NCBI RefSeq assembly: GCF_003611695.1
Contig: NZ_RAWE01000097.1
Span: 1 to 33,503, forward strand
Reading direction: 5' to 3'
Origin: Corallococcus carmarthensis
GTDB lineage: Bacteria; Myxococcota; Myxococcia; Myxococcales; Myxococcaceae
Length of the DNA stretch: 33,503 nucleotides
The translations under genes were made by a program, and so were the position numbers. The notes under the pieces are model-generated. The model ran no database searches and was not told the origin of the DNA. It saw only the letters and a program-made list of their open reading frames with translations. Positions 19,637 through 33,503 of the stretch are shown piece after piece; within the stretch, counting starts at the first letter, position 1, and each line of letters begins with the position of its first letter.

Positions 19637-19648
19637 CAGCTGTGCGCG

Positions 19649-19681
19649 AGGCCACGGGTTCAAGTCCCGTACTCCTCGCCA
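19649..19681 (+). other. tRNA 3'-end remnant, probable integrase attachment site
   Basis: The bases form a perfect T-arm: stem ACGGG (19654-19658), loop TTCAAGT, stem CCCGT (19666-19670). Then come seven acceptor bases ACTCCTC, discriminator G and CCA (19679-19681). The upstream 40 bases do not form anticodon, D or 5' acceptor arms and instead hold the end of the response regulator gene. It is therefore only the 3' part of a tRNA. Such fragments are the usual core of attachment sites for tyrosine integrases, and an integrase gene ends 88 bases away. The tRNA identity cannot be told without the anticodon. Confidence 0.75.
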
Positions 19682-19686
19682 CTGAA

Positions 19687-19727
19687 AGCCCAGCAATCCT
19701 AGGGGGTTGCTGGGCTTTTGTTTTTTC
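19687..19727 (+). terminator. strong Rho-independent terminator
   Basis: AGCCCAGCAA (19687-19696) and TTGCTGGGCT (19707-19716) form a perfect 10-bp stem with a 10-base loop, followed by TTTTGTTTTTT. It lies just after the tRNA CCA and would end plus-strand transcription from the two-component operon or the tRNA. Confidence 0.9.
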
Positions 19728-19768
19728 TCCGTACCGTCATGTGCCCCCCATGTGCCCCTCCGGCGTGG

Positions 19769-20959
19769 CTAGCCCGGAACGGCGTGCGCTTGCGGCATGG
19801 ACCGGTCAAGCGCCTGCACCGCGCTCTCCCTCGCTTCGGGTGACAGGTGCGCGTACCGCATCGTCATGTCGACGGTGGCGTGCCCCATCAGCTCCTGGAT
19901 GACCTTGAGGGGGACCCCGCGCATCGCGAGGTGGCTCCCGTAGGTGTGGCGCAGGTCGTGCCATGTGATGGCCCCCTGTTCGCGAGTGATGCCCGCCCGG
20001 CTCACGGCCCGTGACAGCCGGTGTTCGGTCATGCTGGCGGTGAGGGGCTGGCCGTCGGGTTGGCAGAACACGTAGGCGCCGCGCAGGTGGCGGTGGCCCT
20101 TGAGCGCGTCCACGGCCGATACGGGCAGGTCCACCGTCCGTCCCCGGCCTCCCTTGGGCAGTCCCGTCACCCCCTGCCAGATGGAACGGCGCACCTGGAG
20201 CTTGCCTCGCGGCAAGTCGAGGTCGCCCCACTGGAGCCCGATCAGCTCTCCGTGGCGGAGTCCCGTCTTGAGCGCCAACAGGATCAGCGTCCGCCACCCT
20301 GGTTCCGCCGCGTCGATCAGTCGCTCGGCTTCCTCGAAGGAGAGGAAGTCGAAGGCGGGCTTCGCCGTCTTGAACAGCTTCACGCGCGGGACGTGTTGGA
20401 GCACGCCCTGTTCCTGGGCCAGTGCGAGCAACTTGTGCAGCACGGTCAGGACGTTGTTGACGGACTTGAGGCTCAGGAGCTTCCCCCCGGCTCCCTTGCG
20501 CTTGCGCAGGGCATCCTTTGAGGGTGCGTCCTTCCTGCCGGGAATGCCCGCTGGCTTCTTCCGCATCGCGGCCTTGAAGTCCTCGATCTCCGCTGGACCG
20601 ATGGCATCAAGAGGCGTGTTCGCGAACGCGGGGAGCAGGTGGTCATCAAGGATCTGCCGCTTGGTGACGACGCTGGAGTGCTTGTTGTTGTTCTCGCTGT
20701 ACGTGATGAAGCGCGGGACGAACTCCCCGAGTGTGAGGATGTGGCCCGGCTCGTTCTGCTTCTCCTTCCCGAAGGTTCCAGTCAGCAGGGCGTGACGGAC
20801 CTGACGCTCGTACTCTTCCGCGCCCCGACGGGTGTTGATGGGCGATGCCTTGCGGACTCGCTCCACCTTCCCGCCGGGGTGCTGGTACTTCACGTCCACC
20901 CACCACGCCTCCTGCACCTTTCCCTCCTTCGTCTTCCACTTCCGCTGCCTGACGCTCAT
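19769..20959 (-). CDS. phage-type tyrosine recombinase/integrase
   Basis: 396 residues. The catalytic set is complete: Arg235 in LKTGLRHGELIGLQW, His334 and Arg337 in TWHDLRHTYGSHL, His360 in ELMGHATVDMT, and Tyr369 in MRYAHLSP; a Lys in the beta-hairpin is plausible at about 269. The N-terminal arm-binding part (1-75) and core-binding part (75-190, FVPRFITYSENNNKHSSVVTK) are present, so the length is that of a full phage integrase. It should recombine the element at the adjacent tRNA-derived site. Its start overlaps the stop of the upstream excisionase-like gene as ATGA. It is the last gene of a five-gene minus-strand operon. Confidence 0.92.
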   Translation of the reverse strand: MSVRQRKWKTKEGKVQEAWWVDVKYQHPGGKVERVRKASPINTRRGAEEYERQVRHALLTGTFGKEKQNEPGHILTLGEFVPRFITYSENNNKHSSVVTKRQILDDHLLPAFANTPLDAIGPAEIEDFKAAMRKKPAGIPGRKDAPSKDALRKRKGAGGKLLSLKSVNNVLTVLHKLLALAQEQGVLQHVPRVKLFKTAKPAFDFLSFEEAERLIDAAEPGWRTLILLALKTGLRHGELIGLQWGDLDLPRGKLQVRRSIWQGVTGLPKGGRGRTVDLPVSAVDALKGHRHLRGAYVFCQPDGQPLTASMTEHRLSRAVSRAGITREQGAITWHDLRHTYGSHLAMRGVPLKVIQELMGHATVDMTMRYAHLSPEARESAVQALDRSMPQAHAVPG

Positions 20960-21177
20960 GGCTTCTCTCCGAGCGCAGGACCGCTGTTACCCGGGCGCCA
21001 TGCTAACAGCGCGTCGCGGTGGATGCGGATGGATCTGCGGAGGTGGAAGACTCCCGGCACCTGCCCCAATCGGATCGACTCGTAGAGCGTCTTCCTGTTC
21101 ACGCGCAGGAGGGCTGCGGCCTCCTCGACCGTCAGGAACTCGGGCGCGCTGGAGCCCGCTTCCGTGGGCTTTGTCAT
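20956..21177 (-). CDS. excisionase/AlpA-like helix-turn-helix protein
   Basis: 73 residues. LTVEEAAALLRVNRKTLYES then IRLGQVPGVFHLRRSIRIHR is the MerR-like winged-helix pattern of excisionase (Xis) and AlpA-type DNA-binding proteins (TVEEAAxLLxVxxxTLYxxI-xGxIP-xRxGxxxRI). The ATG at 21177 overlaps the stop of the helicase gene (ATGA), and its stop overlaps the integrase start in the same way. This supports the start and makes it the recombination directionality factor or integrase regulator for this element. Confidence 0.85.
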   Translation of the reverse strand: MTKPTEAGSSAPEFLTVEEAAALLRVNRKTLYESIRLGQVPGVFHLRRSIRIHRDALLAWRPGNSGPALGEKP

Positions 21178-22709
21178 CGCGTCGGCCCGCCCCCATTGGT
21201 TGGAGGCGCTCGGCCTGGCACGGTCTCGGGGGACGGCTGTGGGCCGTTTGTGCTCGCTACGTGAGCACCACGCGATCCCGTGAGAGGGACGACCTTCGCC
21301 GCTTGCTGTGATCCGTCCTGACCCGGCTGGTGCCAAGAGGGAAGCCAGCCCCGCGTCTTGCTGTCGCGCTGTTCGGTCCATCCCGCCGTCTTCAGCGCGG
21401 CAAGGAAGGTTCGTTTCTGGGGCGGATGCTTCTGCCCCACCACGATGCAGAACCCGCAGACCGCCGCATACAGCGCGTCATTCGTGAACGCCTTGGTCTT
21501 GCCCACCTGAGCGCCGCCACGGTGAATCACGGTGGCCAGCGGGCCATTCATCGCCCAGTCGCGAATCTGTGCGTCGGGGTCCGGGCTCTCACTGAGTTCT
21601 CGCAGGAATTGCTCCGTCACCGGCTCGCTGAGTTGCTGAAGCTCCTCACGGGACGCGTTGACGTGGGGCCGGCGAACCTGCCGCATGTCCACGGCGCGGT
21701 TGACCATGGCGTGAGCGAAGGCGGCCACCTGCCGCATGAACTCGGGCGTGAACGCGTCGTCTTCTCCCGGAGCGTGCAGCGATTCCAAGAACTCCCGATG
21801 CGTCATGCCCAGGTCCGGGTGCGTGTACTCGGCGGGCTTGGTCCTGTTGTGGAGCACCGTCCAGCGGCGGTCGCCCTCCTCGATTTCGATGGGCTTCGTC
21901 CGGTTAGTCGCGGCGAGCAGTCCGGCGCGGTTCGTCGCGGACGTTCGGGCAACGCCCTTGCTCTCCAGGAAGACCTCGCCGTCGGTGATGGTCGCCTTGA
22001 GCCCGTCGCCGAGCGAGCCTCCGCGCTTGTGGTTATCGAGCAGCTCGTTGGCGAAGATCAGGAGCTTCGTGGCGAAGTGGAAGTTGTAGGGCTTGGCCAG
22101 ATCCGCCTCACCAATCTGGACGCAATTGGAGGGCCCCAGCAGGTGCGACAGCACGCGATAGAGCACGTTCTTGCCGGAGCCCGGGGGGCCTTGCAGAAGG
22201 ATAGCGGTGCCCGGCCTGGAGCCCGGATGCTGGACCTTGAAAGCGATCCAGTTGAGCAGCCAGTCAAGGCCGGCTGCGTCTTCGGCGAGCCAGAGCAGAA
22301 CGCGGCGCACGTCGGGCCACTCACCCTGAATTGGCGCGAGCGTAGGAGCCTCCCAGGTGTTGACCGCAAACGTCCCGTCCTTGCGCCTGATGAGATCGGG
22401 CGCGTTCGGCCTGCACTCAATAGCCATGACGCCCGCGCAGAGGTTCAGCACGTCGGGGGCAGAGGCCAACGGGCTGACTCCACGCGGCCACATATCGCGC
22501 GGGGGCACCAAACCTCGCAGAATGAGGTAGTCCTCGGCCGCCTTCTGCGTCAGGAACTCAGGGGCGAAGCCGCGCCCGTCGTGGCGCCGTGCAAGGTAGC
22601 GCTCCAGCGGAACGACCTTCACCAGCGGTAGCTTGGCGACTTCGGCGCGCGCCGCTTCGATGTCGGCTGCGTGGGCCAGCGCGTCTTCGGGATGGATACT
22701 CGTGCTCAC
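21174..22709 (-). CDS. SF3-like/DUF5906-type replicative helicase
   Basis: 511 residues from GTG 22709, which overlaps the upstream stop as GTGA. The frame is open further upstream, but that part is antisense to the preceding gene. Walker A is LLQGPPGSGKN at about 172-181. It is followed by KLLIFANELLDNHKRG, LKATITDGEVFLESKGVART and GLLAATNRTKPIEIEEGDRR, the order seen in phage and satellite DNA helicases of the D5/SF3-like primase-helicase group. The C-terminal 60 residues are low-complexity. With the upstream primase it would form the element's own replication module. An origin-binding role is possible but not shown. Confidence 0.8.
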   Translation of the reverse strand: MSTSIHPEDALAHAADIEAARAEVAKLPLVKVVPLERYLARRHDGRGFAPEFLTQKAAEDYLILRGLVPPRDMWPRGVSPLASAPDVLNLCAGVMAIECRPNAPDLIRRKDGTFAVNTWEAPTLAPIQGEWPDVRRVLLWLAEDAAGLDWLLNWIAFKVQHPGSRPGTAILLQGPPGSGKNVLYRVLSHLLGPSNCVQIGEADLAKPYNFHFATKLLIFANELLDNHKRGGSLGDGLKATITDGEVFLESKGVARTSATNRAGLLAATNRTKPIEIEEGDRRWTVLHNRTKPAEYTHPDLGMTHREFLESLHAPGEDDAFTPEFMRQVAAFAHAMVNRAVDMRQVRRPHVNASREELQQLSEPVTEQFLRELSESPDPDAQIRDWAMNGPLATVIHRGGAQVGKTKAFTNDALYAAVCGFCIVVGQKHPPQKRTFLAALKTAGWTEQRDSKTRGWLPSWHQPGQDGSQQAAKVVPLTGSRGAHVASTNGPQPSPETVPGRAPPTNGGGPTR

Positions 22710-23920
22710 TGCTCGCCCCCGTTGTGGTGGCCCGAACTGGCCGCCAGTCCCAGAGCACGGCGCCATTCCGCATACTCCGCTGCCCGTTGTGCCGCTCTCT
22801 GGCGGTCCCATTGCGTGAGCTTGGCGCGCGCGCCGCGGAGCCCTCGCAGCGCTTCGCCCCACACGTCCCGGGACGGTTCCAGTCGCGAGAGTGCGTCGAG
22901 AGAGAGACGCGCGCATTCGAGGAGGCTTTCCGAACTCTCCTCGGGCGTGGCCACGCGGGCGAGCATTTCGGTCAGCTTGTTGATGCCCAGGTGCCGCTGC
23001 CCGTCGAGCATGAGCACTTCGCCTGTGTCCATCTGCGCGAGCACGGTCACGGCGTCGGAGCGCTTGAATCGCTGGAGGCGCCTGCGCACGTCACCCGGAT
23101 TCGCCGTGCGCGTGCCGTCCACCTGCTCCTCGTTGGGACGTTCGGCGTAGCGCGCGAAGGGCACCCGCAGCAGGGGGCCGAACTCGGCTTGTACGTCCAA
23201 CGGCTGGCCCTGGTGGTGCTCGGGGATTGGTCTTGGCCGCACGTTTGAAGGGTCCCAGCTCGGCAGGTAGTAGAGCCGCGCGACATCCTTGCAGGACGCA
23301 TCCGCCTTCAACGCAGCGTCCGTCAGCTCGCCGAGCCCCACGCAACGCATGAGGCGCGGCCAAAGGCGCTCCGACCAGCGGCTCGCCGAGCCAAGGGGCA
23401 CGGGTTCGCTGAACGGGAAGACGACCCGATAGCGGATTGGCTTCGACGTGCGCCCGTAGGAGTGCGTGGGGTAGGCGAGGAACCACAAGCCACGGCGGCG
23501 CAGGCTCGCAAGCCACGCCTCAAGCGCGGCCTGGGTTTCACCGTCGAAGTCCACGATGCCCAGGGTGACGTGGGAGAAGTTCGCGTTGCGGCGGTAGGGC
23601 GCGGGCGTGGGCTGCCCGTCCTTGCCTTCGTAGAGGCCATCAGCGCGGGGCGGATGCGGCTTGGCCGGGATGATGGCGCGGCCGTCCTTCTCGGGGCGCA
23701 CGAGAGGATCGGCGGCCACCTCGTAGAGAGCGGCCATCAGCTCGCCCGCTGAGTTGAACTCCACGACATCCAGACTCCCTGGGGTGAAGCGCGAGTCAGT
23801 CAGGCAGACCGTCCAGGAAGCGGGCACCGGCACAGCGCCCGACGCTGGGTTTTCCGCGTCAACATGGGACGGCATGGTGGGAGCTGTGACGGAAGTCCCA
23901 ACGCGGGGGGGCTCCGTCAT
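22706..23920 (-). CDS. AEP/prim-pol-like primase
   Basis: 404 residues from ATG 23920. The frame extends to a GTG at 24028 that overlaps the preceding stop. However, those 36 extra codons have only about half GC at third positions and cover inverted repeats, so I favour the later start. The core contains VTLGIVDFDGETQAALEAWL (an acidic DFD pair typical of archaeo-eukaryotic primases) and WFLAYPTHSYGRTSKPIRYR then VVFPFSEPVP, with a His and basic residues of the nucleotide site. Next is KDVARLYYLPSWDP, typical of phage/plasmid RepB- or prim-pol-like primases. The C-terminal helical part probably contacts the helicase. It likely makes primers for element replication. Confidence 0.7.
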   Translation of the reverse strand: MTEPPRVGTSVTAPTMPSHVDAENPASGAVPVPASWTVCLTDSRFTPGSLDVVEFNSAGELMAALYEVAADPLVRPEKDGRAIIPAKPHPPRADGLYEGKDGQPTPAPYRRNANFSHVTLGIVDFDGETQAALEAWLASLRRRGLWFLAYPTHSYGRTSKPIRYRVVFPFSEPVPLGSASRWSERLWPRLMRCVGLGELTDAALKADASCKDVARLYYLPSWDPSNVRPRPIPEHHQGQPLDVQAEFGPLLRVPFARYAERPNEEQVDGTRTANPGDVRRRLQRFKRSDAVTVLAQMDTGEVLMLDGQRHLGINKLTEMLARVATPEESSESLLECARLSLDALSRLEPSRDVWGEALRGLRGARAKLTQWDRQRAAQRAAEYAEWRRALGLAASSGHHNGGEQ

Positions 23921-24036
23921 TGCTCCGTCACCGGGGTTTTCACTCTGTACGTGACGGAGTGACTGAACTCCCTTTTCCTTAAGAGAAGAAGAGAGAGAGG
24001 AGAGGGAGAAACAAGCCGCGTCAGTCACTCCGTCAC
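23886..24036. promoter_or_regulatory. cluster of CTCCGTCA/TGACGGAG motifs with a 16-bp inverted repeat
   Basis: Five copies of the octamer core occur: 23886-23893 (GTGACGGA), 23912-23919 and 23923-23930 (CTCCGTCA, exactly 11 bases apart), one in GTGACGGAGTGACTGA at 23951-23966, and one in its perfect inverted partner TCAGTCACTCCGTCAC at 24021-24036. The 54 bases between the two arms hold a 31-base pure purine run at 23981-24011. The cluster lies at the junction of the winged-helix and primase genes. It could be an operator for the winged-helix protein, a set of iterons for replication initiation, or an mRNA hairpin controlling primase translation. Confidence 0.65.
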
Positions 24037-24309
24037 CCCCTCTCGACGCGGGGCCAGCGTAGCTACCGGCGCCAGCGCGTTGGGGGCAGCGAGCGTGTAG
24101 ACCCGTGGCACCGCGCCACGCACGCCGGGCCTGTGCCGGTGGGACACGCGCACCGCGCCAGTGGCCAACAGAAGGGTCAGGGCCCGTCGAGTGAACTGCT
24201 CTCCAGAGCCGAGGCGCCCGCGCAGCTCCTTCACGGTGAGGCCATCAGGCCCGGCTTGGGTGAGCGCTGCGATGATGTGAGGAATGTATTTTTCGAGAAC
24301 TTCAATCAT
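24025..24309 (-). CDS. small winged-helix protein of the element
   Basis: 94 residues from ATG 24309, opening MIEVLEKYIPHIIAALTQAG; an ATG at 24336 adds nine basic residues. The body PDGLTVKELRGRLGSGEQFT then RRALTLLLATGAVRVSHRHR has the helix-helix-helix-wing order of winged-helix domains, with an Arg-rich wing. The tail is Ala/Pro-rich. It is the first gene of the minus-strand operon and is read away from the capsid gene, the usual place for a control protein. Repressor, replication co-factor or activator cannot be told apart. Confidence 0.65.
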   Translation of the reverse strand: MIEVLEKYIPHIIAALTQAGPDGLTVKELRGRLGSGEQFTRRALTLLLATGAVRVSHRHRPGVRGAVPRVYTLAAPNALAPVATLAPRREGVTE

Positions 24310-24426
24310 GGTTGATTTTCTTTGTTTCCCTCCCATCCGGTAAATGCGTGCGGCAATTGCGGGTGGCTCACGAGCACCGGCACCGATGGGCGATCATGCT
24401 CCGCTCGCTCGCAACCCAAAGGGCTT

Positions 24427-24620
24427 GGCATTCCGCAGCCTGCCCGCGTGGTGGAGGGCCTTGAGGCATCCCCCCGGCTCCGATTTCCGAAGCGAGGCCA
24501 CTTCGGACCGTGCTCGGAGGTCCCACACGCTGAGAAAATTTCCAAAAAATCTCGCGGGCTCGGTTGGGTTTTGCCGTCCGCCCCCCCCCGAACTCTTGCC
24601 GAAACCGCCCCCGTAACCGG
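24427..24620 (+). repeat. diverged direct repeat, copy A
   Basis: About 190 bases align with 27184-27370 in the same orientation at roughly 75-80% by eye. Shared landmarks are GGCATT, CCCCCCGG, TTTCCGAAGCG (24484-24494), an AAAA-rich patch, and CTTGCCGAAAC (24595-24605) ending in GTAACCGG. A hairpin is conserved in both copies: here GGACC (24505-24509) / GGTCC (24519-24523) with a nine-base loop containing TGCTCGG. The minus-strand frame is open through both copies and gives similar words (VSARVRGG versus VSARIRGA). I do not recognise the repeat family. Confidence 0.75.
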
Positions 24621-24916
24621 CTGGATGCCGCCGCGTCGGCTATGGGCAGAGCAGGCACACCCCGCCACGCTCCACGGTCCCCAGGTGCCGCTGCCCGCCC
24701 TTGGCACCGCACTCGCCCGAGCGTCGGTCGGCTGCCGCGCTCCTGGAACCCCTCCACAGGCCCGCCGTGCTGTCTCTCGCGTCTGGTGGTTCCAATGCCC
24801 GGCTTTTGCCCGGCCAGCAACCAAGCGCGCCCCAGCAGACTCCGACGCCTTCCGCAGGCAGCTCGGCAGAAGTGCGCGCCGACGCCGTCAGCGGCGAATG
24901 AGCCACAGACAAAAAC

Positions 24917-24937
24917 CGCACCCATTTAGCGGGTGCG
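24917..24937 (-). terminator. hairpin abutting the capsid gene start, terminator-like on the minus strand
   Basis: CGCACCC (24917-24923) and GGGTGCG (24931-24937) form a perfect 7-bp stem with loop ATTTAGC. The stem ends exactly at the base before the capsid ATG. Read on the minus strand the stem is followed by GTTTTTG, as in an intrinsic terminator. Read on the plus strand it buries the only GGGTG ribosome-site-like sequence. Confidence 0.6.
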
Positions 24938-26842
24938 ATGCCCAATTCAATCACACGCTCTCTTCAGCTTGCAGCCGTTCGGAAGGATGCGGCTGCGCTG
25001 ACCGCCGTCGAGGCTGGGAGCGGTCAACGTGTCTATACGTTCAAGGCGAGCGACGGCGACTTCGATCGCTACTTCGACCGGCTGAACGTCAAGGGCTGGA
25101 GGATCGACGGGTACAACGCGAACGGCGTCGTTCTCTTCAATCACGACGACGGCGCTCAGGCTGCACTCACGGGAGCTGAGCCGCCGCTTCCCATCGGCAA
25201 GGGGCGCGTCTACGTCGAAGGCGACGCGCTGATGATTGATGTCGAGTTTGACGACGAAGACGACTTCGCGCGCAAGGTCGAGCGCAAGATCGCGAGGGGC
25301 ATCCTCAACGCTGTCTCAGTCCGCTACCTGATGCTACCGGGTCATTACCGGCAGAACGAGCGGGGCGGCTTCGACTGTGACGCTCAAGAGCTGCTCGAAG
25401 TTTCGATCGTGACGATCCCGGCGAACGCGCGAGCTGTGCGCGCGAAGTCGCTCGACGGTGAGGGTGAAGACATCGTCGAGCGCATCGCGAAGCGGGTCGT
25501 CGAGCTGTTCGACGCGCGAGCCGAAGCGATGGCCGACGACGACGAGAACGACAAGCCTGACGCGAGCGCCGAGCCGGCCGACAAGCCTGACGAGCCCGCG
25601 CCCGCGAACGAGAGCAAGCCCGATTCGGGCGAGCCGCCTGCCGACGCGCCGAAGGCAGACGACGAAGAAGAGGAAAGACGAAGGGTTTCAACGCCGCCGA
25701 CGCCGCGAAGCAATTCGTCGAGGCGTTCAAGCAACACATCCGAGGAGTGTGAGAAGATGACTCGCCAGCAGATCGCGGAAATGGTGAAGGCGCTCGGCCC
25801 CGAGGTCGCGCGTGAGCTGATCAACGCTGCGGCCCGAAGCGCCCCCGGCCGCGTGGGAACAGACAGGGCGACGCGCGAGGGCAGCGTCTACGCAAGCGTC
25901 GCGAACTTTGGTGCGTTCACGAAGAGCGTCATCGCCTTGGGTCGCCGCACGGGCGCGGGCGAGCTGCTCGACGCCGCGAAGCGCTTCGGCAATGCCGACG
26001 TGCAGAAGGCAGTTCAGCTCAGCAAGTTCGACAGCGCGGGCGTGCTCGTACCGATCCAGCAGAGCGGCGAGGTGATCGAATTCCTCCGACCCGAGGCCGC
26101 ACTGCTCAAGCTCGGCGTGCGAACCCAGCCGTTCAAGGGCGAGTTGCACATGGGCACGCAGACGGGAACTTCTGTCTTCAAATGGGTTGGCGAGGGGGAG
26201 ACTGTCCCGAGGACCGCGCCGAAGTACGGGAAGCTCGTGCTCAAGGCGCACAAGGGGATGGTCCTCACCGACGTCAGCAACGACCTGCTGCGCACGCCGG
26301 GGGTCGGTGACGCGAGCGTCGGTGAGGACATCCGCGCCACCGTGGCCGATGGCCTCGACGACGCTGGCTTCAACGGTGACGGCACGAGCGCCGCGCCGAA
26401 GGGGCTCTTCGTGCAGCTCGACCCCGCGCAGGTCTTCGCGAGCACGGGCACGACCGCCGCGGCATACCTGGCCGACATCGACAGGGCGGTCGAGCTGCCG
26501 CTGACCGCGCATGTTCGCATGGGCACTGCGGCGTGGGTCATTCACCCGACCCGGGCGACTGCGCTGATGCAGCTCAAGGACACGGGCATCTTCATCTTCC
26601 GTCAGGAGATGCTCGACAAAGGCACGATCCGGGGCTTCCCCTTCGTGATGACGACGCGCGTCCCCGTGACGAAGGTCGTCTTCTCGGCGGACTGGCGGCA
26701 ATTCATTTACGGGATCGACGAGAATCTGATCCTCTCCGAGCACGACACCCGCGCCGAGCACGACGAGACGACCATCCGCGCGATCGTGAAGGGCGACTTC
26801 AAGCTGCGCCAGCCGAAGGCGTTCAGCGCGATCACCTACTAA
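24938..26842 (+). CDS. HK97-type prohead protease fused to major capsid protein
   Basis: 634 residues. Residues 1-170 are a HK97 prohead protease: VYTFKASDGDFDRYFDRLNV, catalytic His69 in VLFNHDDG, Ser127 in GILNAVSVRY, and LLEVSIVTIPANARA. A linker at 190-273 is acidic, then turns Ser/Arg-rich. The major capsid protein starts at Met274 (ATG 25757, with GAGGAG upstream): MTRQQIAEMVKALGPEVARE, FDSAGVLVPIQQSGEVIEFL, GDGTSAAPKGLFVQ, and MGTAAWVIHPTRATALMQLK. In relatives these are commonly two genes. Here the protease seems to have lost its stop by a frameshift near 25675-25681 (see findings). Codon choice (many GCG, CGA, GCC-GAC runs) differs somewhat from the flanking host genes. No portal or terminase adjoins it. 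Confidence 0.9.
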   Translation: MPNSITRSLQLAAVRKDAAALTAVEAGSGQRVYTFKASDGDFDRYFDRLNVKGWRIDGYNANGVVLFNHDDGAQAALTGAEPPLPIGKGRVYVEGDALMIDVEFDDEDDFARKVERKIARGILNAVSVRYLMLPGHYRQNERGGFDCDAQELLEVSIVTIPANARAVRAKSLDGEGEDIVERIAKRVVELFDARAEAMADDDENDKPDASAEPADKPDEPAPANESKPDSGEPPADAPKADDEEEERRRVSTPPTPRSNSSRRSSNTSEECEKMTRQQIAEMVKALGPEVARELINAAARSAPGRVGTDRATREGSVYASVANFGAFTKSVIALGRRTGAGELLDAAKRFGNADVQKAVQLSKFDSAGVLVPIQQSGEVIEFLRPEAALLKLGVRTQPFKGELHMGTQTGTSVFKWVGEGETVPRTAPKYGKLVLKAHKGMVLTDVSNDLLRTPGVGDASVGEDIRATVADGLDDAGFNGDGTSAAPKGLFVQLDPAQVFASTGTTAAAYLADIDRAVELPLTAHVRMGTAAWVIHPTRATALMQLKDTGIFIFRQEMLDKGTIRGFPFVMTTRVPVTKVVFSADWRQFIYGIDENLILSEHDTRAEHDETTIRAIVKGDFKLRQPKAFSAITY

Positions 26843-26851
26843 GCCGACGGG

Positions 26852-26950
26852 GTGACAGCGGGGCAGCTCGCACAGTGCATGCGGAAGACCTGCCCGCGCT
26901 CAAAGCTGGCCGTCCTGGGGGGAACCACGACAACGCGGTTCTACGCATGC
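26852..26950 (+). pseudogene. possible remnant of a GH19 lysozyme-like N-terminus
   Basis: A GTG at 26852 opens VTAGQLAQCMRKTCPRSKLA. This resembles the first helix of GH19 chitinase/endolysin proteins (xTxxQLxxxMPxxPxxKLxxyL), but the frame loses sense after about 24 residues. The next plausible coding stretch is in another frame. The similarity is short and this call is weak. Confidence 0.25.
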
Positions 26951-27147
26951 TGTCGGCCAGTGCGCCGTCGCTCGTCGCGGGTTTCTGGGAGGGGTTCGCC
27001 CGCGACCTGGACTTCGAGCGGCTCGGGGTCGAGTGGGTGCCTGAGACCGCGCAGCCCCTCAAGCGCGGCAAGCTCCGCCTGATGCGCGGTCACGTCTGGC
27101 ATCGAGTCCCGGAGACGGGCACATGCACGGGCCCCGACGCGCCGTAG
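26947..27147 (+). CDS. small hypothetical protein downstream of capsid gene
   Basis: 66 residues from ATG 26947: MLSASAPSLVAGFWEGFARD, then LDFERLGVEWVPETAQPLKR, then GKLRLMRGHVWHRVPETGTC. Third codon positions are almost all G or C, which supports real coding. There is no clear ribosome site and the frame is also open upstream without a better start, so the N-terminus is uncertain. No signal or membrane segment is seen. It could be a small phage-element protein or the 3' end of a decayed longer gene. Confidence 0.4.
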   Translation: MLSASAPSLVAGFWEGFARDLDFERLGVEWVPETAQPLKRGKLRLMRGHVWHRVPETGTCTGPDAP

Positions 27148-27860
27148 ACGACTAGGCCCGCTTGCTCGTGGCTCGTGGAGCCCGGCATTTAATCGCTCGC
27201 TCTAGCGGGGGGCTGCCTGGAGACACTCCCCCCGGTTCCCGTTTCCGAAGCGCGGGCACTGGGGACCTTGCTCGGCGGTCCCCCACGCTCGAAAAATCCT
27301 CAGAAAATTCGTGGGGCTTCGTTACGTGCGGCGCCCCCCGAATTCTTGCCGAAACACGCCCGGTAAACGGACGGCCGCTCTTGGGGGGGAAGTGTGACGA
27401 GTTGCTAGGCAGTCCACCCCGCCGTGCTTCAAGGGGCCGCCCTGCCATTATGCGCCGCCCGGCGCCTGCCCCTCCCCGTTCGGTGGCCCCTGAGTTCTTG
27501 GAGCCTTCCAAGTGCTCGCAGTGCCGCCACCCCTCACGTCCGGGATGGCCTCGGTTGCCTTGGCACACCCGTTGCGGTACTCCAGGAGTCTTTACGGCCC
27601 CACCCCAGCCCCGCCCGCGTCAGTGTGCCACGGCACCGCTACAGCCCCAGTCACTGTGCCGAAGGATCCAGCGTCATGCGTGCACTGTGGCGAACTCTGG
27701 GATTGCTGGTTTTCGCGACGAGTACCCCGGGAAGTGAACTGTGCGCCGCGTTCGCTTGGAGCACCGACGTTCCGCACACATGTCAATGGGCCTAGGCTAG
27801 ACGAGCCCCCTAAATGTCAGGTATTTGCCACCTGCCACTCACTACCCAGGGGTTCACCAC
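27148..27860. other. non-coding region with repeat copy B
   Basis: About 710 bases without a convincing gene. The second copy of the diverged repeat occupies 27184-27370. The rest is C-rich with broken frames. A short CAGGT/ACCTG hairpin lies near 27815, upstream of the secreted-protein gene. I see no RNA gene. Confidence 0.5.
27184..27370 (+). repeat. diverged direct repeat, copy B
   Basis: Direct copy of 24427-24620, about 2.75 kb away, so the pair brackets the capsid gene. The conserved hairpin is stronger here: GGGGACC (27261-27267) pairs with GGTCCCC (27277-27283) around loop TTGCTCGGC. TTTCCGAAGCG (27242-27252) and CTTGCCGAAAC (27345-27355) are identical to copy A. Confidence 0.75.
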
Positions 27861-28298
27861 ATGCTGAAGTCGGGGCTCGTTGCTCTTTGCGTCACGTTTA
27901 CGGCCGTGCTCGTCAGCTTGACGGTGGCGCCGCAGGCACACGCGGCCGGACTCTTCGCGAAGACCCAAGTCATAGTTGACGAAGAAATTGCGCTCTCAAA
28001 CCACGGCTCCCAGATGCGGGGCTTCAAGCTCTCAAGCAAAGCAACGCTTCAAGTCAGCGTCAAAGGCGTTAAGAACACGGACAAGGGCTTTGACGTCTAC
28101 CTGATGACGGCGGACAACTACGAAAAGTTCAAGGAAGGAAAGGAGTTCAAGCATTTTCCCACGTTCCAGGGCCTGAAAATCACTGGCGCTACGAATACCG
28201 CAGACATCCCGGCAGGAGACTATGTGCTTGTCGTTCACAACAAGTACAACCTGCTCAAGGGAATGATCGTGCAGGTGAAGGCGACCATCAATCCCTAG
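27861..28298 (+). CDS. secreted hypothetical protein
   Basis: 145 residues from ATG 27861, with AGGGG upstream. A signal peptide (GLVALCVTFTAVLVSLTVAP, cleavage probably after QAHA) is followed by about 115 residues of alternating strands: TQVIVDEEIALSNHG, FKLSSKATLQVSVKGV, KGFDVYLMTADNYEKFKEGK, DIPAGDYVLVVHNKYN, GMIVQVKATINP. The pattern suggests a small beta-sandwich, but I cannot name the family. It has lower GC than the chromosomal genes to the left. It may be cargo of the integrated element or the first gene beyond it. Confidence 0.7.
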   Translation: MLKSGLVALCVTFTAVLVSLTVAPQAHAAGLFAKTQVIVDEEIALSNHGSQMRGFKLSSKATLQVSVKGVKNTDKGFDVYLMTADNYEKFKEGKEFKHFPTFQGLKITGATNTADIPAGDYVLVVHNKYNLLKGMIVQVKATINP

Positions 28299-28632: not shown

Positions 28633-29583
28633 ATGCCGACCCCAGGAGTGAAGACATACGAACATTCTCGTAAATACGAGGCGAGTACGCTCGGCAGGCT
28701 GTGGGGGCTGTCTGGAAATCGTTGTGCGTACCCAGACTGTCCATCCAAGCTGATTGCTGATGCCACGCCCTGTGACGACTCGGTCATCATTGGCCACATC
28801 GCACACATCTACTCCGTGAACTCCGGCGGGCCTCGGCCTTATCCATTTGAGGATGCCAGCAAAGCAGTAATCAACGGGTACGACAACCTGTTGCTCTTGT
28901 GTCGGCACCATCATGCGCTGGTGGACTGTCAAGAGTCGTCCTTTCCAGTGGAGATGCTCAAGCAATGGAAGCAGAACCACTCCTGCCAAGCCCTATCCAC
29001 ACGCACATCGATACTGCCGAAACGATTTCATGAGTTCGCCTCCATGGGGGCTCGCTTCACGCTTCAGACTTTGGACGGAACGATTACATCCATTGGCGCA
29101 CCTGTTGTTCGAATCGTGCGCGAAAAGAATGGAGAGAACGAGCGTGACGTTCAGTATGTGGACCGGCAAGTGTGGATCCGCCTCGACAATGGGCGTGAGT
29201 TTGAACTGAAAATCCAAAACGTCGATCCCCCTGGCCGCGAAGGGATGCGCGTAACCTTGTTGCGGATAATGGACGAGGCAGGCAACGCTCTTCCTCACTC
29301 CATCTACAACCACGCCTCTCCGGGCTGGACGCAGCTCAATTATATCTGGGGAAGTATCCAGTGGAGTATCAGCGCGCCAGAAGGAATGCTTGGTGCTCTA
29401 CTCCTCTTTGCCGTCGTATTTGCCATTGTATTCCTTCCGCCCATGATCGGACTCCGACAGCATGACGATGCAATGCTGATCTGCCTGGGCTTCATGGCTA
29501 CTTCGCTCATTGGTGCTGGAATAAGGCACTGGCGGCTGTGGCAGCACGCCACAAGGGCGATGCAGGAGACACAGTTCGTCTGA
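28633..29583 (+). CDS. HNH nuclease-like protein with C-terminal membrane helices
   Basis: 316 residues, with GGAG six bases before the ATG. The N-terminal 120 residues are an HNH-type zinc-finger nuclease domain: CAYPDC at 31-36, IGHIAH at 53-58, and YDNLLLLCRHHHALVD at 83-98. Together these supply the Cys pairs, the catalytic His region, Asn and final His. A beta-rich middle (about 135-235, RFTLQTLDGTITSIGAPVVR, DRQVWIRLDNGREFELKI) is of unknown fold. Two hydrophobic helices end the protein (LGALLLFAVVFAIVFLPP and AMLICLGFMATSLIGAGI). A nuclease tethered to the membrane next to an integrated element fits a defence effector, but that is inference. GC is visibly lower than in core genes. Confidence 0.75.
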   Translation: MPTPGVKTYEHSRKYEASTLGRLWGLSGNRCAYPDCPSKLIADATPCDDSVIIGHIAHIYSVNSGGPRPYPFEDASKAVINGYDNLLLLCRHHHALVDCQESSFPVEMLKQWKQNHSCQALSTRTSILPKRFHEFASMGARFTLQTLDGTITSIGAPVVRIVREKNGENERDVQYVDRQVWIRLDNGREFELKIQNVDPPGREGMRVTLLRIMDEAGNALPHSIYNHASPGWTQLNYIWGSIQWSISAPEGMLGALLLFAVVFAIVFLPPMIGLRQHDDAMLICLGFMATSLIGAGIRHWRLWQHATRAMQETQFV

Positions 29584-29745: not shown

Positions 29746-30666
29746 ATGCGTTTCCGGAGATGCGGCGCCCTCTTGCTTCTGCTCGTTTTCTCCGCCTGCG
29801 CTTCCTCGACGCCCCCTCCCAATGAGCGGGGAACGTGGAACCCGAGGCTCGCCAACCTCCAGCGAGCAGCAGAGTTGCCGTGGACTGACGGGGGACGATG
29901 CGTCGTCCGTGAGGCTTCCCAGCCTTGGCCCGCGCTGGTGGAGAAGTGCTATCGGACCCTCGACCGTGACCGGATCGAGTTCCACGACACCACGGGGAGA
30001 TGCTCGATTGCTTCAGCGGATGCCGCGACCGTGGGACTTGGGTTCTGCGTGCTGGCAGCTCCTGAGATTGCTGTAGGGGCCGTGATCGTGCTTGGCGTGG
30101 TGGTGGTCGGCGTCGCCATCAAAGAGGCACTGAATGCCTATGAGTTCCGCCATGCCTACCCCGAGGAAGCTGGGACCTCACGAGGAACGGAGGTGTCCTC
30201 CCGGGAAGCCGAAGCGCAACGCAAGCCCAAATCGAAGCCCGATCCAGCGGGGCAGGACTGGTTCCCTCCAGCGCCGACCGATCCAATGGACCGAGAGCGC
30301 CGCCTTGAGTGCAGGCCCGTTCCGGTGCCGCATCGTGGCGGCAATGATCCGCACAACGACTGCGCCGATCTCCTTCCGCAGAACAGCTTCCCCGGCTGGG
30401 ATGTGCTTGTTAATGGCAAGCAGTTTGACGCACTGGTGCTTGTTACGCGGACTCTGTGGGACGTCAAGACTGATGCGTTCGAGAAACACAACCTGCACTC
30501 CCAGCAGTTTTTTGCCAAGGTGAAGCTGCCCGAATTGCAACGCGAGAGAAGGCTCGCAGAAGCATGTGGATATAAGTTTGTCGTTGGCGTCCGAAGCGCT
30601 GCACACAAGGCTGCTCTTGAGAAATTGGATAACACTCTCGCGGTTGTTGTCATGGACTGGTGCTAA
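29746..30666 (+). CDS. lipoprotein toxin with C-terminal DUF6310 nuclease-like domain
   Basis: 306 residues. The N-terminus MRFRRCGALLLLLVFSACAS is a lipoprotein signal with Cys18. A long hydrophobic stretch at about 95-128 (VGLGFCVLAAPEIAVGAVIV, LGVVVVGVAI) may cross or insert into the membrane. After a basic, low-complexity hinge the C-terminus (about 188-306) matches what I know as DUF6310: ECRPVPVPHRGGNDPHNDCA, FPGWDVLVNGKQFDAL, LWDVKTDAF, QFFAKVKLPELQRERRLAEA, CGYKFVVGVRS. The Asp ... D-V-K spacing resembles PD-(D/E)XK nucleases. DUF6310 with a DUF5953 partner one base downstream is a common myxobacterial pair, and the lipoprotein plan fits outer-membrane-exchange toxins. Confidence 0.75.
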   Translation: MRFRRCGALLLLLVFSACASSTPPPNERGTWNPRLANLQRAAELPWTDGGRCVVREASQPWPALVEKCYRTLDRDRIEFHDTTGRCSIASADAATVGLGFCVLAAPEIAVGAVIVLGVVVVGVAIKEALNAYEFRHAYPEEAGTSRGTEVSSREAEAQRKPKSKPDPAGQDWFPPAPTDPMDRERRLECRPVPVPHRGGNDPHNDCADLLPQNSFPGWDVLVNGKQFDALVLVTRTLWDVKTDAFEKHNLHSQQFFAKVKLPELQRERRLAEACGYKFVVGVRSAAHKAALEKLDNTLAVVVMDWC

Positions 30667-30667
30667 C

Positions 30668-31426
30668 ATGGCGGTCTTTCCTGATGAACTCGGCATCATT
30701 GTCTATGCGCCTGCACTCGTGGGTGACGACAGGCGACCTCTCGCTATCGTTCATGGAATGGAAGGCGCGCTTCCTGGTCTACGGCTGGACTGGACGTATT
30801 CCGAGAAGGAAGAGTTTGTTGCGTTACCTCACCGCGACGAATGGATCGTTTCAGATAGGACGGACAACGGGTTTCCGTTCATTTGCAACGATGACAGAAG
30901 CCGCCCAGTGACGATTACCGGCTGGGAGAACCCGAACGGGCTTGCGGCAGGGAGCCCACCGCACTTGGAGGTTCACGGATCGCTGCACCTGGACGCAGCC
31001 GGTATCCCGGCGGGAGCGAATGTGCTGGCAGCCATAGGGGAAGGCGCTCGCGCTTTCTGGGGACGCGCTACGCCGTCCAACGCGGCCGTCGAGATTTCGC
31101 AGCAGACGATCGATCCGGTGCGTAAGCCGGGTGTCCCACCACGCGGCCTCCCAGCGCTTAGGTTTCCGGACTACATCCGCTCGCCTGAGGTTCCGCATTA
31201 CCTCGGGTGGTTGAACTACTGGTCGGCTGCCGCCGCGCAGGCCATCGGCTTTCCGGACCCGACCCGCGACGCCGAACTGCTTTCACGGGCGTGGCGCACG
31301 GCCTCGGGCGGCTGGGTCGTGCAGCTCACCGACGCGCCGCTCGACCTGGACAACCCCGCCCACCTGGACGCGCTGAAGCGGGCCTATGAGCGGTTCTCGG
31401 AGATCGGCGGCCGTGCGGCGCCTTGA
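30668..31426 (+). CDS. DUF5953-family protein, probable immunity to the DUF6310 toxin
   Basis: 252 residues from ATG 30668, one base after the toxin's TAA, so translation is very likely coupled. It opens MAVFPDELGIIVYAPALVGD and continues DDRRPLAIVHGMEGALPGLR, PVTITGWENPNGLAAG, HLDAAGIPAGANVLAAIGEG, ARAFWGRATPSNAAVEISQQ and PALRFPDYIRSPEVPHYLGW. I recognise this as DUF5953, which in myxobacteria regularly follows DUF6310 genes. It has no signal peptide, as expected for a cytoplasmic immunity protein. Function is inferred from pairing. The 3' third is much richer in GC than the 5' part. Confidence 0.75.
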   Translation: MAVFPDELGIIVYAPALVGDDRRPLAIVHGMEGALPGLRLDWTYSEKEEFVALPHRDEWIVSDRTDNGFPFICNDDRSRPVTITGWENPNGLAAGSPPHLEVHGSLHLDAAGIPAGANVLAAIGEGARAFWGRATPSNAAVEISQQTIDPVRKPGVPPRGLPALRFPDYIRSPEVPHYLGWLNYWSAAAAQAIGFPDPTRDAELLSRAWRTASGGWVVQLTDAPLDLDNPAHLDALKRAYERFSEIGGRAAP

Positions 31427-31526
31427 CCCGATTCAGGAACCCGGGGCGCCCCTCCGGCTGTAGGAAAGAGACCCACTGCGCGCGGGCGCGCGATGGTAGC
31501 CTTCCCCCTTGGGAGGTCATGCACCA

Positions 31527-32396
31527 TTGCTCCAACCGTTCAGATTGGCTCTAGCGTTCGCGCTCGTCTCGGGAGTTGCTGCGGGGGCTGAGCCGGCACC
31601 GGGGGCGCGCGTCAGGCGGGAACGTCCCGTCACCGTCGCCAGCACGCCCGCCGAACCACTGCCCGTCGTCCATGTCGCGGGGGGCGCCCGGACGCTGTTC
31701 CTGTTCTCTGCGCCGATCCAGCGGAAGACCCTCACCTTCGACGAGTCGCGGATCCGTGTCCTGGATGCGGGCGAGCGCTCAATCATCGTTCAGCCTGTAG
31801 CCAATCTCACCGAAGGCGAGCGTCAGGAGATCGGGGTCTTCTTCGCTGACGGCCGAGCGCCCACCCGGGCCGCCTTCGTGCTCATGACAGACCCGAGCGA
31901 CGTTGACGCACTGATTGACGTGCAGCGCCCGGAGCCTCCGAACACGGCTTGTAAGACGGACGCTCAATTGCCGGTGCCGAAGCCGGAAGACTTCGTGTTG
32001 CTTGGCTTAGTGGATGGGAAAGGCGTCACAACCTCCAAAATCCAAGACAAGCGGGATGATGCTCAGGGCTTCAGGACACAAGGGGCCGTATCTTTTCGGG
32101 GCAAGGGGTGGGTTCTGGTGGACGTGACGATCTGGAACACCTCCGACCAACAAGCCTGGACACCACGAGAGGCAACATTTACGGGCCGTGTCGGCATGCC
32201 TCTGCGGGCGCGGCTCGTGACAGCAAAGAAGGGCCCGATCCTGCCGGGGGAGGAGCGGCGCGTTATCGCGGTCGCGGAAATTCAGGATTCGGACGCAAGC
32301 TTTGTCTTCGCATTGGAGGTGCGCGGGGACGACGGACGGCGTCTCTTGATTCCTGAAGTGCGCTTCCCGAAGCCCGCTACGGGAGGCGCCCAATGA
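31527..32396 (+). CDS. DUF2381-family secreted protein
   Basis: 289 residues if started at TTG 31527, ten bases after GGGAGG. A TTG at 31509 is in frame but would begin before that site. The start MLQPFRLALAFALVSGVAAG gives a signal peptide. The body PLPVVHVAGGARTLFLFSAP, LTFDESRIRVLDAGERSIIV, LTEGERQEIGVFFADG, APTRAAFVLMTDPSDVDALI and DVQRPEPPNTAC is the Myxococcus-type paralogous family DUF2381. The C-terminal part (GKGWVLVDVTIWNTSDQQAW, GPILPGEERRVIAVAEI) is an Ig-like strand pattern. Its stop overlaps the kinase start as ATGA. This DUF2381-kinase pairing is common in Myxococcaceae, and the protein may be an extracytoplasmic partner of that kinase. Confidence 0.85.
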   Translation: MLQPFRLALAFALVSGVAAGAEPAPGARVRRERPVTVASTPAEPLPVVHVAGGARTLFLFSAPIQRKTLTFDESRIRVLDAGERSIIVQPVANLTEGERQEIGVFFADGRAPTRAAFVLMTDPSDVDALIDVQRPEPPNTACKTDAQLPVPKPEDFVLLGLVDGKGVTTSKIQDKRDDAQGFRTQGAVSFRGKGWVLVDVTIWNTSDQQAWTPREATFTGRVGMPLRARLVTAKKGPILPGEERRVIAVAEIQDSDASFVFALEVRGDDGRRLLIPEVRFPKPATGGAQ

Positions 32397-33503
32397 CGGC
32401 GACGCCGATTGAGACGCCGCCCGGCACGCTCATTGACGGATGGCAGGTTTCCGAAGAACTCGGCAACGGTGGCTTTGCCCGCGTCTTCCTCGGAGAGAAG
32501 AACGGTAATCGCGGTGCGATCAAGGTGGCGCGTCACCGGGAAGTGAGCGGCGATTTCAAGCAGACCCATGCCCGGACCTTGCGCGAGCTGACGGCGCTTC
32601 TCATTCTGGAGCACCCGAACATCGTCCGCCCGCAGGGGTATGGCTACACGGCGACCGGCAACGTGTACCTTGCGCTTGACTACGTGGACGGCTGGACGCT
32701 TGCGGAGTGGGCAGAGCGAAAACACCCCACGATTCGCGAGATTCTGAGCGTCTTTGAGAAGATCGCGGCCGCACTGTCTTACATGCACAGTCGGGGCGTG
32801 CTGCATCGGGATTTGAAGCTGCTCAATGTCCTGATCCGCAAGAGTGACGGCGAGCCTGTCATCATCGATTTTAGCTGTGCGACCTACTCGTTGGCCGAAG
32901 ACCTGACTGAGGGCGGTTTGCCTCCGGGAACCGAACGCTACCGCGCGCCAGAACAGTTCCAATTCCTGCGCGAGCACAAGGACGAGCACCGGGCTCGCTA
33001 TGCCTTCCAGGTGGCCGACGAGATTTTCGCCGTCGGCGTCATGCTGCATGAGCTGCTGACCGATCCGCGACCGACAGAGTTCCGCCCGCGCTTCGCCCTG
33101 AACAGCCAACAATTCGAGCCGCCGCCGCCCCGACTCGCGAACGCCCGTGTTCCCGAGGTACTGAGCGATCTCGTCGAGAGCCTCCTGGAGCGGGACCCCT
33201 CACGGCGCCCGGTCGACACGGAAGCACTCCGTCGCGAGTTTGCGGATCTCCGGGCCGACCCAATCGTCGACTACGACGTGCCGGCGCATCCACCATCCGC
33301 ACAACATCAGCCCGAGCCCGCCGCGCGGGGGGCACTTGGAGCGCCGCTCCCTCTCAACCCCGCCCCCCTCAAGATGCACGTCGCCCTGATGAAGCGTCCG
33401 CACCGGCCGGCAAGGTGGCTCGCGGGCGTTGCGGGTGTCGTCGCGCTCGTCGTGGCTGCGGCCTTCTGGGGCTCTTCAGTGGAGAGCCCCGCCCCACCTC
33501 CTG
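32393..33503 (+). CDS. Hanks-type Ser/Thr protein kinase (runs off right edge)
   Basis: 370 codons from ATG 32393 to the edge with no stop. Kinase features are P-loop LGNGGFARV at 23-31, VAIK-type Lys44 (GAIKVAR), catalytic HRDLKLLN at 138-145, and the metal-binding Asp159 in DFS rather than DFG. The activation segment ends YRAPEQ, and LLERDPSRRP closes the domain. After a Pro-rich juxtamembrane segment a transmembrane helix follows (WLAGVAGVVALVVAAAFWG, about 345-363), so a periplasmic domain lies beyond the window. This is the usual layout of myxobacterial membrane STKs. It is coupled to the DUF2381 gene by a four-base overlap. Confidence 0.9.
   Translation, partial: MTATPIETPPGTLIDGWQVSEELGNGGFARVFLGEKNGNRGAIKVARHREVSGDFKQTHARTLRELTALLILEHPNIVRPQGYGYTATGNVYLALDYVDGWTLAEWAERKHPTIREILSVFEKIAAALSYMHSRGVLHRDLKLLNVLIRKSDGEPVIIDFSCATYSLAEDLTEGGLPPGTERYRAPEQFQFLREHKDEHRARYAFQVADEIFAVGVMLHELLTDPRPTEFRPRFALNSQQFEPPPPRLANARVPEVLSDLVESLLERDPSRRPVDTEALRREFADLRADPIVDYDVPAHPPSAQHQPEPAARGALGAPLPLNPAPLKMHVALMKRPHRPARWLAGVAGVVALVVAAAFWGSSVESPAPPP

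Follow-up and report, generated by a model that had tools for sequence, protein, structure and literature searches.

The Staphylococcus aureus pathogenicity island (SaPI) SaPIbov5 is an integrated phage-inducible chromosomal island (PICI) of ~14 kb, which shares its packaging site with helper phages of 42-45 kb and encodes Ccm, a protein with 19.2% identity to the helper capsid protein (PMC5052747). Ccm occupies the pentamers of small SaPI procapsids, and thus a homologue of a helper capsid protein can serve a satellite (PMC8569155); the available excerpts of these two papers describe no protease accompanying Ccm. P4-like satellites are characterised by the genes sid, psu and delta and by a P4-type alpha gene. 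Capsid-forming PICIs (cf-PICIs), as defined in the excerpted source, encode the portal, the head-tail connectors, the small and large terminase subunits (TerS and TerL) and HNH packaging genes in addition to the capsid (PMC10690885). In myxobacteria, tail-less particles have been reported for the prophage Mx alpha of Myxococcus, which measures ~80 kb per unit (PMC6070905). Here we describe an integrated element of Corallococcus carmarthensis that combines a replication operon of the satellite kind with a single fused prohead protease-capsid gene. It lies in contig NZ_RAWE01000097.1 (33,503 bases; our contig C527 of a 10.8-Mb draft genome), the whole of which is hereafter referred to as the window; position 33503 is the contig end.

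The element is probably a PICI-like satellite that carries the presumed packaging site of its helper lineage together with a captured and selectively maintained protease-capsid gene, and that would borrow portal, terminase and tails. Like the SaPIbov5-type cos PICIs, with which we compare it by description only, it is integrated, has a site in common with phages and encodes a homologue of an HK97-fold capsid protein; by analogy, the SaPIbov5/Ccm strategy is its nearest precedent. Unlike Ccm, its capsid protein is 83-84% identical to those of two phages in our sample (L047 and L092) and is fused in frame to an intact-looking protease. It resembles the cf-PICIs (PMC10690885, in the part available) in having its own major capsid protein and maturation protease within an integrated satellite, but no portal beyond a 34-codon remnant, no connectors and neither TerS nor TerL were found in it, and its HNH protein resembles defence effectors. 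A first-pass annotation of the window had suggested that this may be a capsid-encoding satellite without terminase, or a strongly reduced prophage; the satellite proposal gains support from a site that provides a specific link to phages, whereas the name cf-PICI does not apply in its strict sense. The int-alpA-like-primase core and the small size recall the phage-inducible chromosomal minimalist islands (PICMIs) and ordinary PICIs, into which the capsid-free members of the family would fit, judging from the excerpts at hand (PMC10803314, PMC6092414). Differences from these islands are the archaeo-eukaryotic primase (AEP)-like and DUF5906/superfamily 3 (SF3) helicase proteins encoded by separate genes of one operon, the DUF2381-kinase cargo and the myxobacterial hosts. 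By description, not sequence, the element is also similar to Mx alpha, a phage-like myxobacterial element linked with toxin-immunity cargo, from which its length of ~16.2 kb sets it apart.

These results point to a phage-satellite family of myxobacteria with a capsid-bearing lineage. Nothing on topic was retrieved from the open-access literature on myxobacteria and phage satellites (subscription papers lay outside the search). The element may, though we would not yet say probably does, represent a third architecture between Ccm-type PICIs and cf-PICIs in Myxococcota, in which one lineage would have its own protease-capsid shell and use the helper's portal, terminase and tail, while a cassette bracketed by the shared site would move between satellites and phages by recombination. 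It would also offer an evolutionary intermediate for the acquisition of capsid genes by satellites, and predatory social bacteria could exchange toxin-like, kinase and defence-like genes by this route. With helper and satellite both predicted by the site, the idea can be tested directly in culturable soil bacteria.

The link to phages is a noncoding site of ~85-97 bp, present in two copies in the window, one on either side of the capsid gene, and composed of three conserved blocks over ~80 bp, one of which is CCCCCCCGG. Comparisons were made in a sample of 96 Myxococcaceae genomes (labels with G; labels with L denote loci). A profile built from 20 element copies only matched each of eight phage loci once, upstream of TerS (L047, L048, which is degraded, L052, L054, L055, L088, L090 and L092, the last three in a Myxococcus strain); even at E<=10, its matches in the loci from L041 on were confined to elements, element remnants and phages. 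One of the eight, L092, has the gene families of an ordinary siphophage (TerS, TerL, portal, head-tail adaptor, major tail and tape measure). When 2.9 million IMG/VR contigs were scanned for the pattern of the site, 12 were retrieved, namely 10 phages of this kind and two capsid-bearing elements (L136 and L139). TerS lies just downstream on the same strand in nine of the 12, and one contig (L142) is the L054 phage again, cut short. The site fills the short gap preceding TerS in L134 and L140. Directly upstream of it, both encode a protein of ~102-107 aa with CxxC motifs (L134:5222-5545 and L140:2989-3297), a relative of which (L054:17121-17426) had no Pfam match. In the portal-bearing elements L043-L045, one site each is found upstream of the portal.

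A search of the 96 genomes with a sequence model then yielded 75 sites (E<=0.01), spread over 43 genomes. This model was built from element and phage copies jointly, and only the element-profile and pattern scans are independent in this respect. Twenty of the 75 sites, those not placed earlier, were classified by their neighbours, leaving aside the weak G032:C123 and G104:C9; 18 of them have at least one element-gene match nearby, in some cases fragments only, and two (L212 and L215) have none. The site was present in 15 of the 17 SF3 elements. Its association with the terminase was assessed on 55 of 67 TerL rows, 24 of them close and 31 distant; the 12 omitted rows are fragments. All 24 TerL genes of at least 77% identity have the site upstream on the same strand, in 21 cases at 0.58-0.63 kb, compared with one of the 31 distant TerL genes, whose site scored E 0.0017. 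By coordinates, two close-lineage fragments among those omitted (G105:C2 and G108:C64) also have a site upstream. An INPHARED search with one phage copy gave a single weak match of 32 bases (E 0.3). RNA folding of the site revealed no covariation, and the notion of an RNA element was dropped. The position of the site suggests that it is a phage packaging site (cos or pac), and siphophages with the close TerL are the likely helper lineage, named here by an independent sequence link.

The element belongs to a family. AEP genes of at least 60% identity and near full length were found at 16 places in 14 of the 96 genomes, not counting incomplete copies in G117:C497 and G132. At 15 of these places, AEP is followed by SF3, Xis and Int in the same order; the remaining stretch (L129) stops at a contig end. 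The gene order that the first-pass annotation had suggested looking for recurs as far as the operon is concerned, but the capsid open reading frame (ORF) was seen at two of the 16 places only, the window and Pyxidicoccus fallax (L089, inside L131), a lower bound as several stretches stop at contig ends. The layout is neither unique nor decayed in all relatives: the P. fallax element has Int, SF3, AEP and small-gene products 67%, 82%, 88% and 90% identical to those of the window and an intact fused capsid ORF (94.6% over 634 aa, gapless), followed by DUF2381 and two kinase genes, and it lies between 23-nt direct repeats 16.1 kb apart. Seven elements, that of P. fallax included, are bounded by direct repeats of 19-36 nt and measure 10.7-16.1 kb. 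The att (attachment site) core lies inside an intact tmRNA gene in L125 and L123 and inside an intact tRNA-Glu gene in L124, and the L122 element sits beside tRNA-Leu. The elements of G001, G014 and G115 have short or doubtful repeats only, and the repeats of G130 and G022 span 19-20 kb. A second group, comprising L041, L085 (Archangium lansinium) and the metagenomic L136, has Int, Xis, protease and capsid genes without SF3 and AEP.

Genome G125 carries three family elements (L124, L125 and L126) at three sites, with different integrases and bodies that are 91-95% alike; at this identity, separate arrivals are more likely than a recent duplication. L197, L200, L201 and L206 share Int, Xis, the small gene, the site and DUF2381 with these elements, but have ~3 kb without SF3 or AEP matches in the place of the replication genes, which suggests that replication modules may be exchangeable.

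We examined whether the protease-capsid gene has been maintained. Where genes were called in portal-bearing relatives and phages, protease and capsid are encoded separately. The window and P. fallax have in common a one-base shift in the linker that fuses the two; the capsid start codon and the GGAG preceding it are kept in the fused ORF, and free capsid protein may therefore be made as well. The protease motifs HDD and VSV are invariant in 11 sequences. The window, P. fallax and L085 show continuous homology across the scar left by the portal deletion, and L041 shows most of it, for which one ancestral loss of the portal seems the simplest reading. Between the window and P. fallax, the ratio of nonsynonymous to synonymous divergence (dN/dS) is 0.26 for the capsid, 0.29 for the protease and 1.13 for the linker; between L041 and L085 it is 0.19 for the capsid and 0.14 for the protease. 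In these four protease and capsid comparisons, replacement changes are too few for neutrality (binomial p 8e-4, 6e-5, 1e-11 and 3e-12). Thus, protease and capsid are under purifying selection in the scar-bearing copies. The synonymous divergence (dS) of the capsid between the window and P. fallax (0.053) is far below that of AEP/SF3 (0.31-0.39) and of one host gene (0.517), which indicates that the cassette moved recently between genera, apart from its neighbours. Site copies on both sides of the capsid gene are what recombination at the site would leave.

The life cycle that we propose would begin when a phage of the close TerL lineage enters or is induced and the element excises, with Int and Xis moving it in and out of the core at the tRNA-Asp 3' end. 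The AEP and SF3 proteins would replicate it, and the helper's terminase would package it through the ~85-bp site; at ~16 kb, the element is less than half the length of the longest site-bearing IMG/VR phage contigs (38 kb). Protease and capsid, presumably captured from a phage of the helper's kind after deletion of terminase and portal, would build the satellite's own shell or co-assemble with helper capsid into satellite-sized heads, to which the helper would contribute portal and tails. DUF2381, the kinases, the HNH protein and DUF6310/DUF5953 would be passengers, probably for defence or competition.

Several observations weigh against this satellite model. The TerL of the site-bearing phages is of the Terminase_6 type, with which the site may be cos or pac, and two copies of the site flanking the capsid gene are awkward for simple cos packaging. 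Two of the 17 SF3 elements have no site. No close-lineage TerL was found in the genome of the window or in P. fallax, and the 15 genomes with SF3 elements and the 16 with close TerL have three of the 96 in common, where chance would give ~2.5. Some of the protease/capsid divergence may predate the loss of the portal. Decay is common among the 18 capsid loci without a portal gene: both frames are intact in six (window, L041, L048, L085, L089 and L136), a full-length capsid is accompanied by a protease that is partial, broken or off the contig in six (L046, L084, L086, L139, L198 and L214), and the capsid itself is broken or cut in six (L042, L049, L050, L051, L053 and L202). Finally, the site may act as a late promoter or operator.

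This last point leads to the alternative that survives best, although we consider it unlikely: the element would still be satellite-like, with the ~85-bp site serving as a late promoter or regulator-binding site through which a helper switches on capsid and cargo. The site is oriented toward the adjoining cargo or capsid gene wherever one was identified, and in phages toward TerS, as such a role would have it. However, its distance of 0.58-0.63 kb from TerL in 21 of 24 cases, its tracking of the terminase lineage (24/24 versus 1/31) and its filling of the short gap before TerS in L134 and L140 argue against this alternative, as do three conserved blocks extending over ~80 bp without RNA covariation, although a promoter would still be compatible with all of these.

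The element might instead be a reduced prophage decaying by piecemeal deletion, with the capsid a leftover and selection acting on the cargo (toxin, kinases and HNH protein). A graded series can be drawn up accordingly, from loci with terminase, portal and capsid (L047, L088 and L092) through those with portal but no terminase (L043-L045) and those with protease and capsid only (window, L041 and L085) to those with a broken or cut capsid (L042, L050, L051, L053 and L202), and the portal remnant marks a deletion. What makes this rather improbable is that the int-xis-SF3-AEP operon defines a distinct family, 14 of whose 16 places lack a capsid in the available stretches; that the element AEP is only ~30% identical to the AEP of the phages, whose helicase is of the VapE type; and that the scar-bearing protease and capsid are under purifying selection in a cassette that moved recently between genera. 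The portal, terminase and tail genes of a complete HK97-type temperate siphophage were not found within the att limits.

More doubtful still is the idea that the capsid protein is mainly an anti-phage weapon, which would co-assemble with the capsid of an infecting relative and spoil its heads, the element itself remaining unpackaged. Its identity to the L047 and L092 capsids would permit such mixing, SaPIbov5 Ccm alone lowers the helper titre (PMC5052747, in the excerpt available), and the HNH cargo is defence-like; but the retained protease, the att cores at both ends and a site at the packaging position of phages point to packaging too, and the two roles do not exclude each other. It is very improbable that the element is an integrative and mobilisable element (IME) spread by conjugation, in which the phage genes would be mere passengers: an integrase, an excisionase and a small size are in keeping with IMEs generally, but no relaxase or coupling-protein family occurs among the scanned window genes (oriT was not searched for), and the HNH protein has a TraX match (E 0.005) that falls far short of the cut-off.

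The features of the satellite candidate are listed in Table 1. Histidine kinase and NtrC-type regulator genes flank it on the left, and the tRNA-Asp 3'-end core is followed by Int, Xis, DUF5906/SF3, AEP-like and small winged helix-turn-helix (wHTH)-like genes. As the first-pass annotation had it, these five form one coupled operon, each adjoining pair overlapping by 4 nt, and gene calls and family matches agree with the order given there; a noncoding gap of 600 bp separates the small gene from the divergent ORF, in which an S78 protease and PF05065 are indeed joined. The AEP-like protein has no Pfam match and a weak PHROG primase match, and we assign it on account of homology to the N-terminal part of phage primase-helicases and four shared motif residues (DxD/H/D). 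The wHTH was recognised by eye, with no family match for the small gene in the Pfam scan. Structure models of the AEP-like (pLDDT 52.7) and fused capsid (pLDDT 33.9) proteins, based on shallow alignments, were unusable, hence no fold search was made; an AEP alignment profile had no hit among PDB chains at E<=1, and no AEP relative was found in IMG/VR.

Table 1. Features of the element in window coordinates; positions on a second contig are prefixed C75.
Feature	Coordinates	Strand	Evidence and remarks
attL core, 3' end of tRNA-Asp	19652..19677	+	second copy C75:2309-2334 (putative attR); arms at both match element G109
Tyrosine integrase (Int)	19769..20959	-	PF00589 E 7e-33
Xis/AlpA-like HTH_17 protein	20956..21177	-	PF12728 on longer ORF; TIGR01764 excise E 4e-11
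DUF5906/SF3-type helicase	21174..22709	-	PF19263 E 1e-13; PHROG DNA primase families
AEP-like primase	22706..24028	-	homology to phage primase-helicase N-part; D160, D162, H189, D243 invariant; PHROG E 0.0011
Small wHTH-like gene	24025..24336	-	wHTH recognised by eye; related elements 55-90% identical
Packaging-site candidate (cos/pac), copy 1	24470..24552	+	also in phages upstream of TerS
Remnant of portal C-terminus (deletion scar)	24797..24898	+	tblastn 61.8% to portal residues 412-445; continuous homology L085, L089
Fused prohead protease and HK97 major capsid protein	24938..26842	+	PF04586, PF05065 E 3e-33; TIGR01554 E 1.5e-31; dN/dS
66-aa ORF behind capsid gene, probably remnant	26947..27147	+	broken or partial in several relatives
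Packaging-site candidate, copy 2	27228..27312	+	same site as copy 1
Small exported-looking protein (by eye), cargo	27861..28298	+	ORF; no family above cut-off
HNH protein, hydrophobic C-terminal segment (by eye), defence-like cargo	28633..29583	+	PADLOC PDC-M68A E 2.5e-28, HNH effectors
DUF6310, putative toxin cargo (role inferred), start lipoprotein-like by eye	29746..30666	+	PF19829 E 1.6e-57
DUF5953, putative DUF6310 partner	30566..31426	+	PF19378 E 1e-118
DUF2381 (TIGR02268) cargo	31509..32396	+	family match
Ser/Thr kinase 1, cut at contig end	32393..33502	+	PF00069; C-terminal part C75:66-659; kinase 2 C75:827-1981

Searches for portal, terminase, tail and lysis families gave no match to the right of the capsid gene (scanned with Pfam as far as the contig end and with PHROGs as far as 28298), in agreement with the earlier note, and the sole portal trace in the window is the remnant of ~34 codons. 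Neither TerS and TerL queries nor the connector queries con1-con4 (at E<=1e-4) matched the window or C75:1-8000, and portal queries had no match in C75:1-8000 either. The 66-aa ORF was considered as a capsid-size factor and rejected.

The limits of the element were defined as follows. Window positions 19648-19682 are identical to the 3' end of the tRNA-Asp that the genome encodes on contig C504, and the tRNA origin proposed for the attachment site thus holds, although ARAGORN called no tRNA in the window. The right limit of 28298, which would give 8.6 kb, had to be abandoned: the element runs on through the HNH, DUF6310, DUF5953, DUF2381 and kinase genes to the contig end. Most likely it continues on contig C75, the start of which matches kinase 1 in its missing C-terminal part (73.7%) and then kinase 2 (94.5%), which in relatives comes after kinase 1; 26 nt of the tRNA-Asp core follow. 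The bases preceding this core match the right arm, and those following the window core the left arm, of the G109 element, which is bounded by 30-nt tRNA-Asp repeats. We thus estimate ~16.2 kb for the element: 13,852 bases of the window, 2,334 of C75 and a gap of ~45 bases estimated from kinase coordinates. None of the packaging genes that might have lain beyond the right edge was found; up to the putative attR, C75 was seen to contain the last part of kinase 1, then kinase 2 and the att core, and nothing else. PICIs are characterised by unique and specific attachment sites with an integrase of their own, a conserved organisation of the replication origin, induction by phages, packaging in phage-like particles, interference with phages and exclusive genes (PMC6092414). 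The element has the integrase and attachment sites of this list, with repeat cores in relatives and the window core paired with that on C75; it also has primase and helicase genes, and the Xis/AlpA-like HTH is the one gene of PICI type identified in it.

An empty-site comparison for the window locus gave no clean site; the G005 sequence following the response regulator sits elsewhere in G000, G001, G003 and G009. In G003 and G009 (L057 and L058), a tRNA-Asp-like 3' fragment is found at the equivalent place (window 19637-19684) behind the regulator, without this element and with broken synteny on the right. Regulator and histidine-kinase matches below 60% identity, and kinase matches below 40%, 45% or 50% depending on the search, were left out of the locus comparisons, as were duplicate terminase/portal queries in several of them and the AEPhel rows in one.

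Elsewhere in the C. carmarthensis genome, two further loci, on contigs C321 and C21, are phage-like, their TerL (37-39%) and capsid (31%) genes being distant ones, and no copy of the shared site was found on these contigs. Contig C492 (L056) has two more relatives of the integrase, together with a truncated site copy, probably element remnants.

Among the cargo genes, the HNH protein has an HNH domain of the type found in effectors of the cyclic-oligonucleotide-based antiphage signalling system (CBASS). The overlapping DUF6310 and DUF5953 genes recur as a pair beside capsid or DUF2381-kinase genes in several elements, and may encode a toxin and its immunity protein. Just past the putative attR on C75, a gene starts for a 1155-aa protein with a TIR-like N-terminus (L071:2335-5802), which has PADLOC TIR effector matches.

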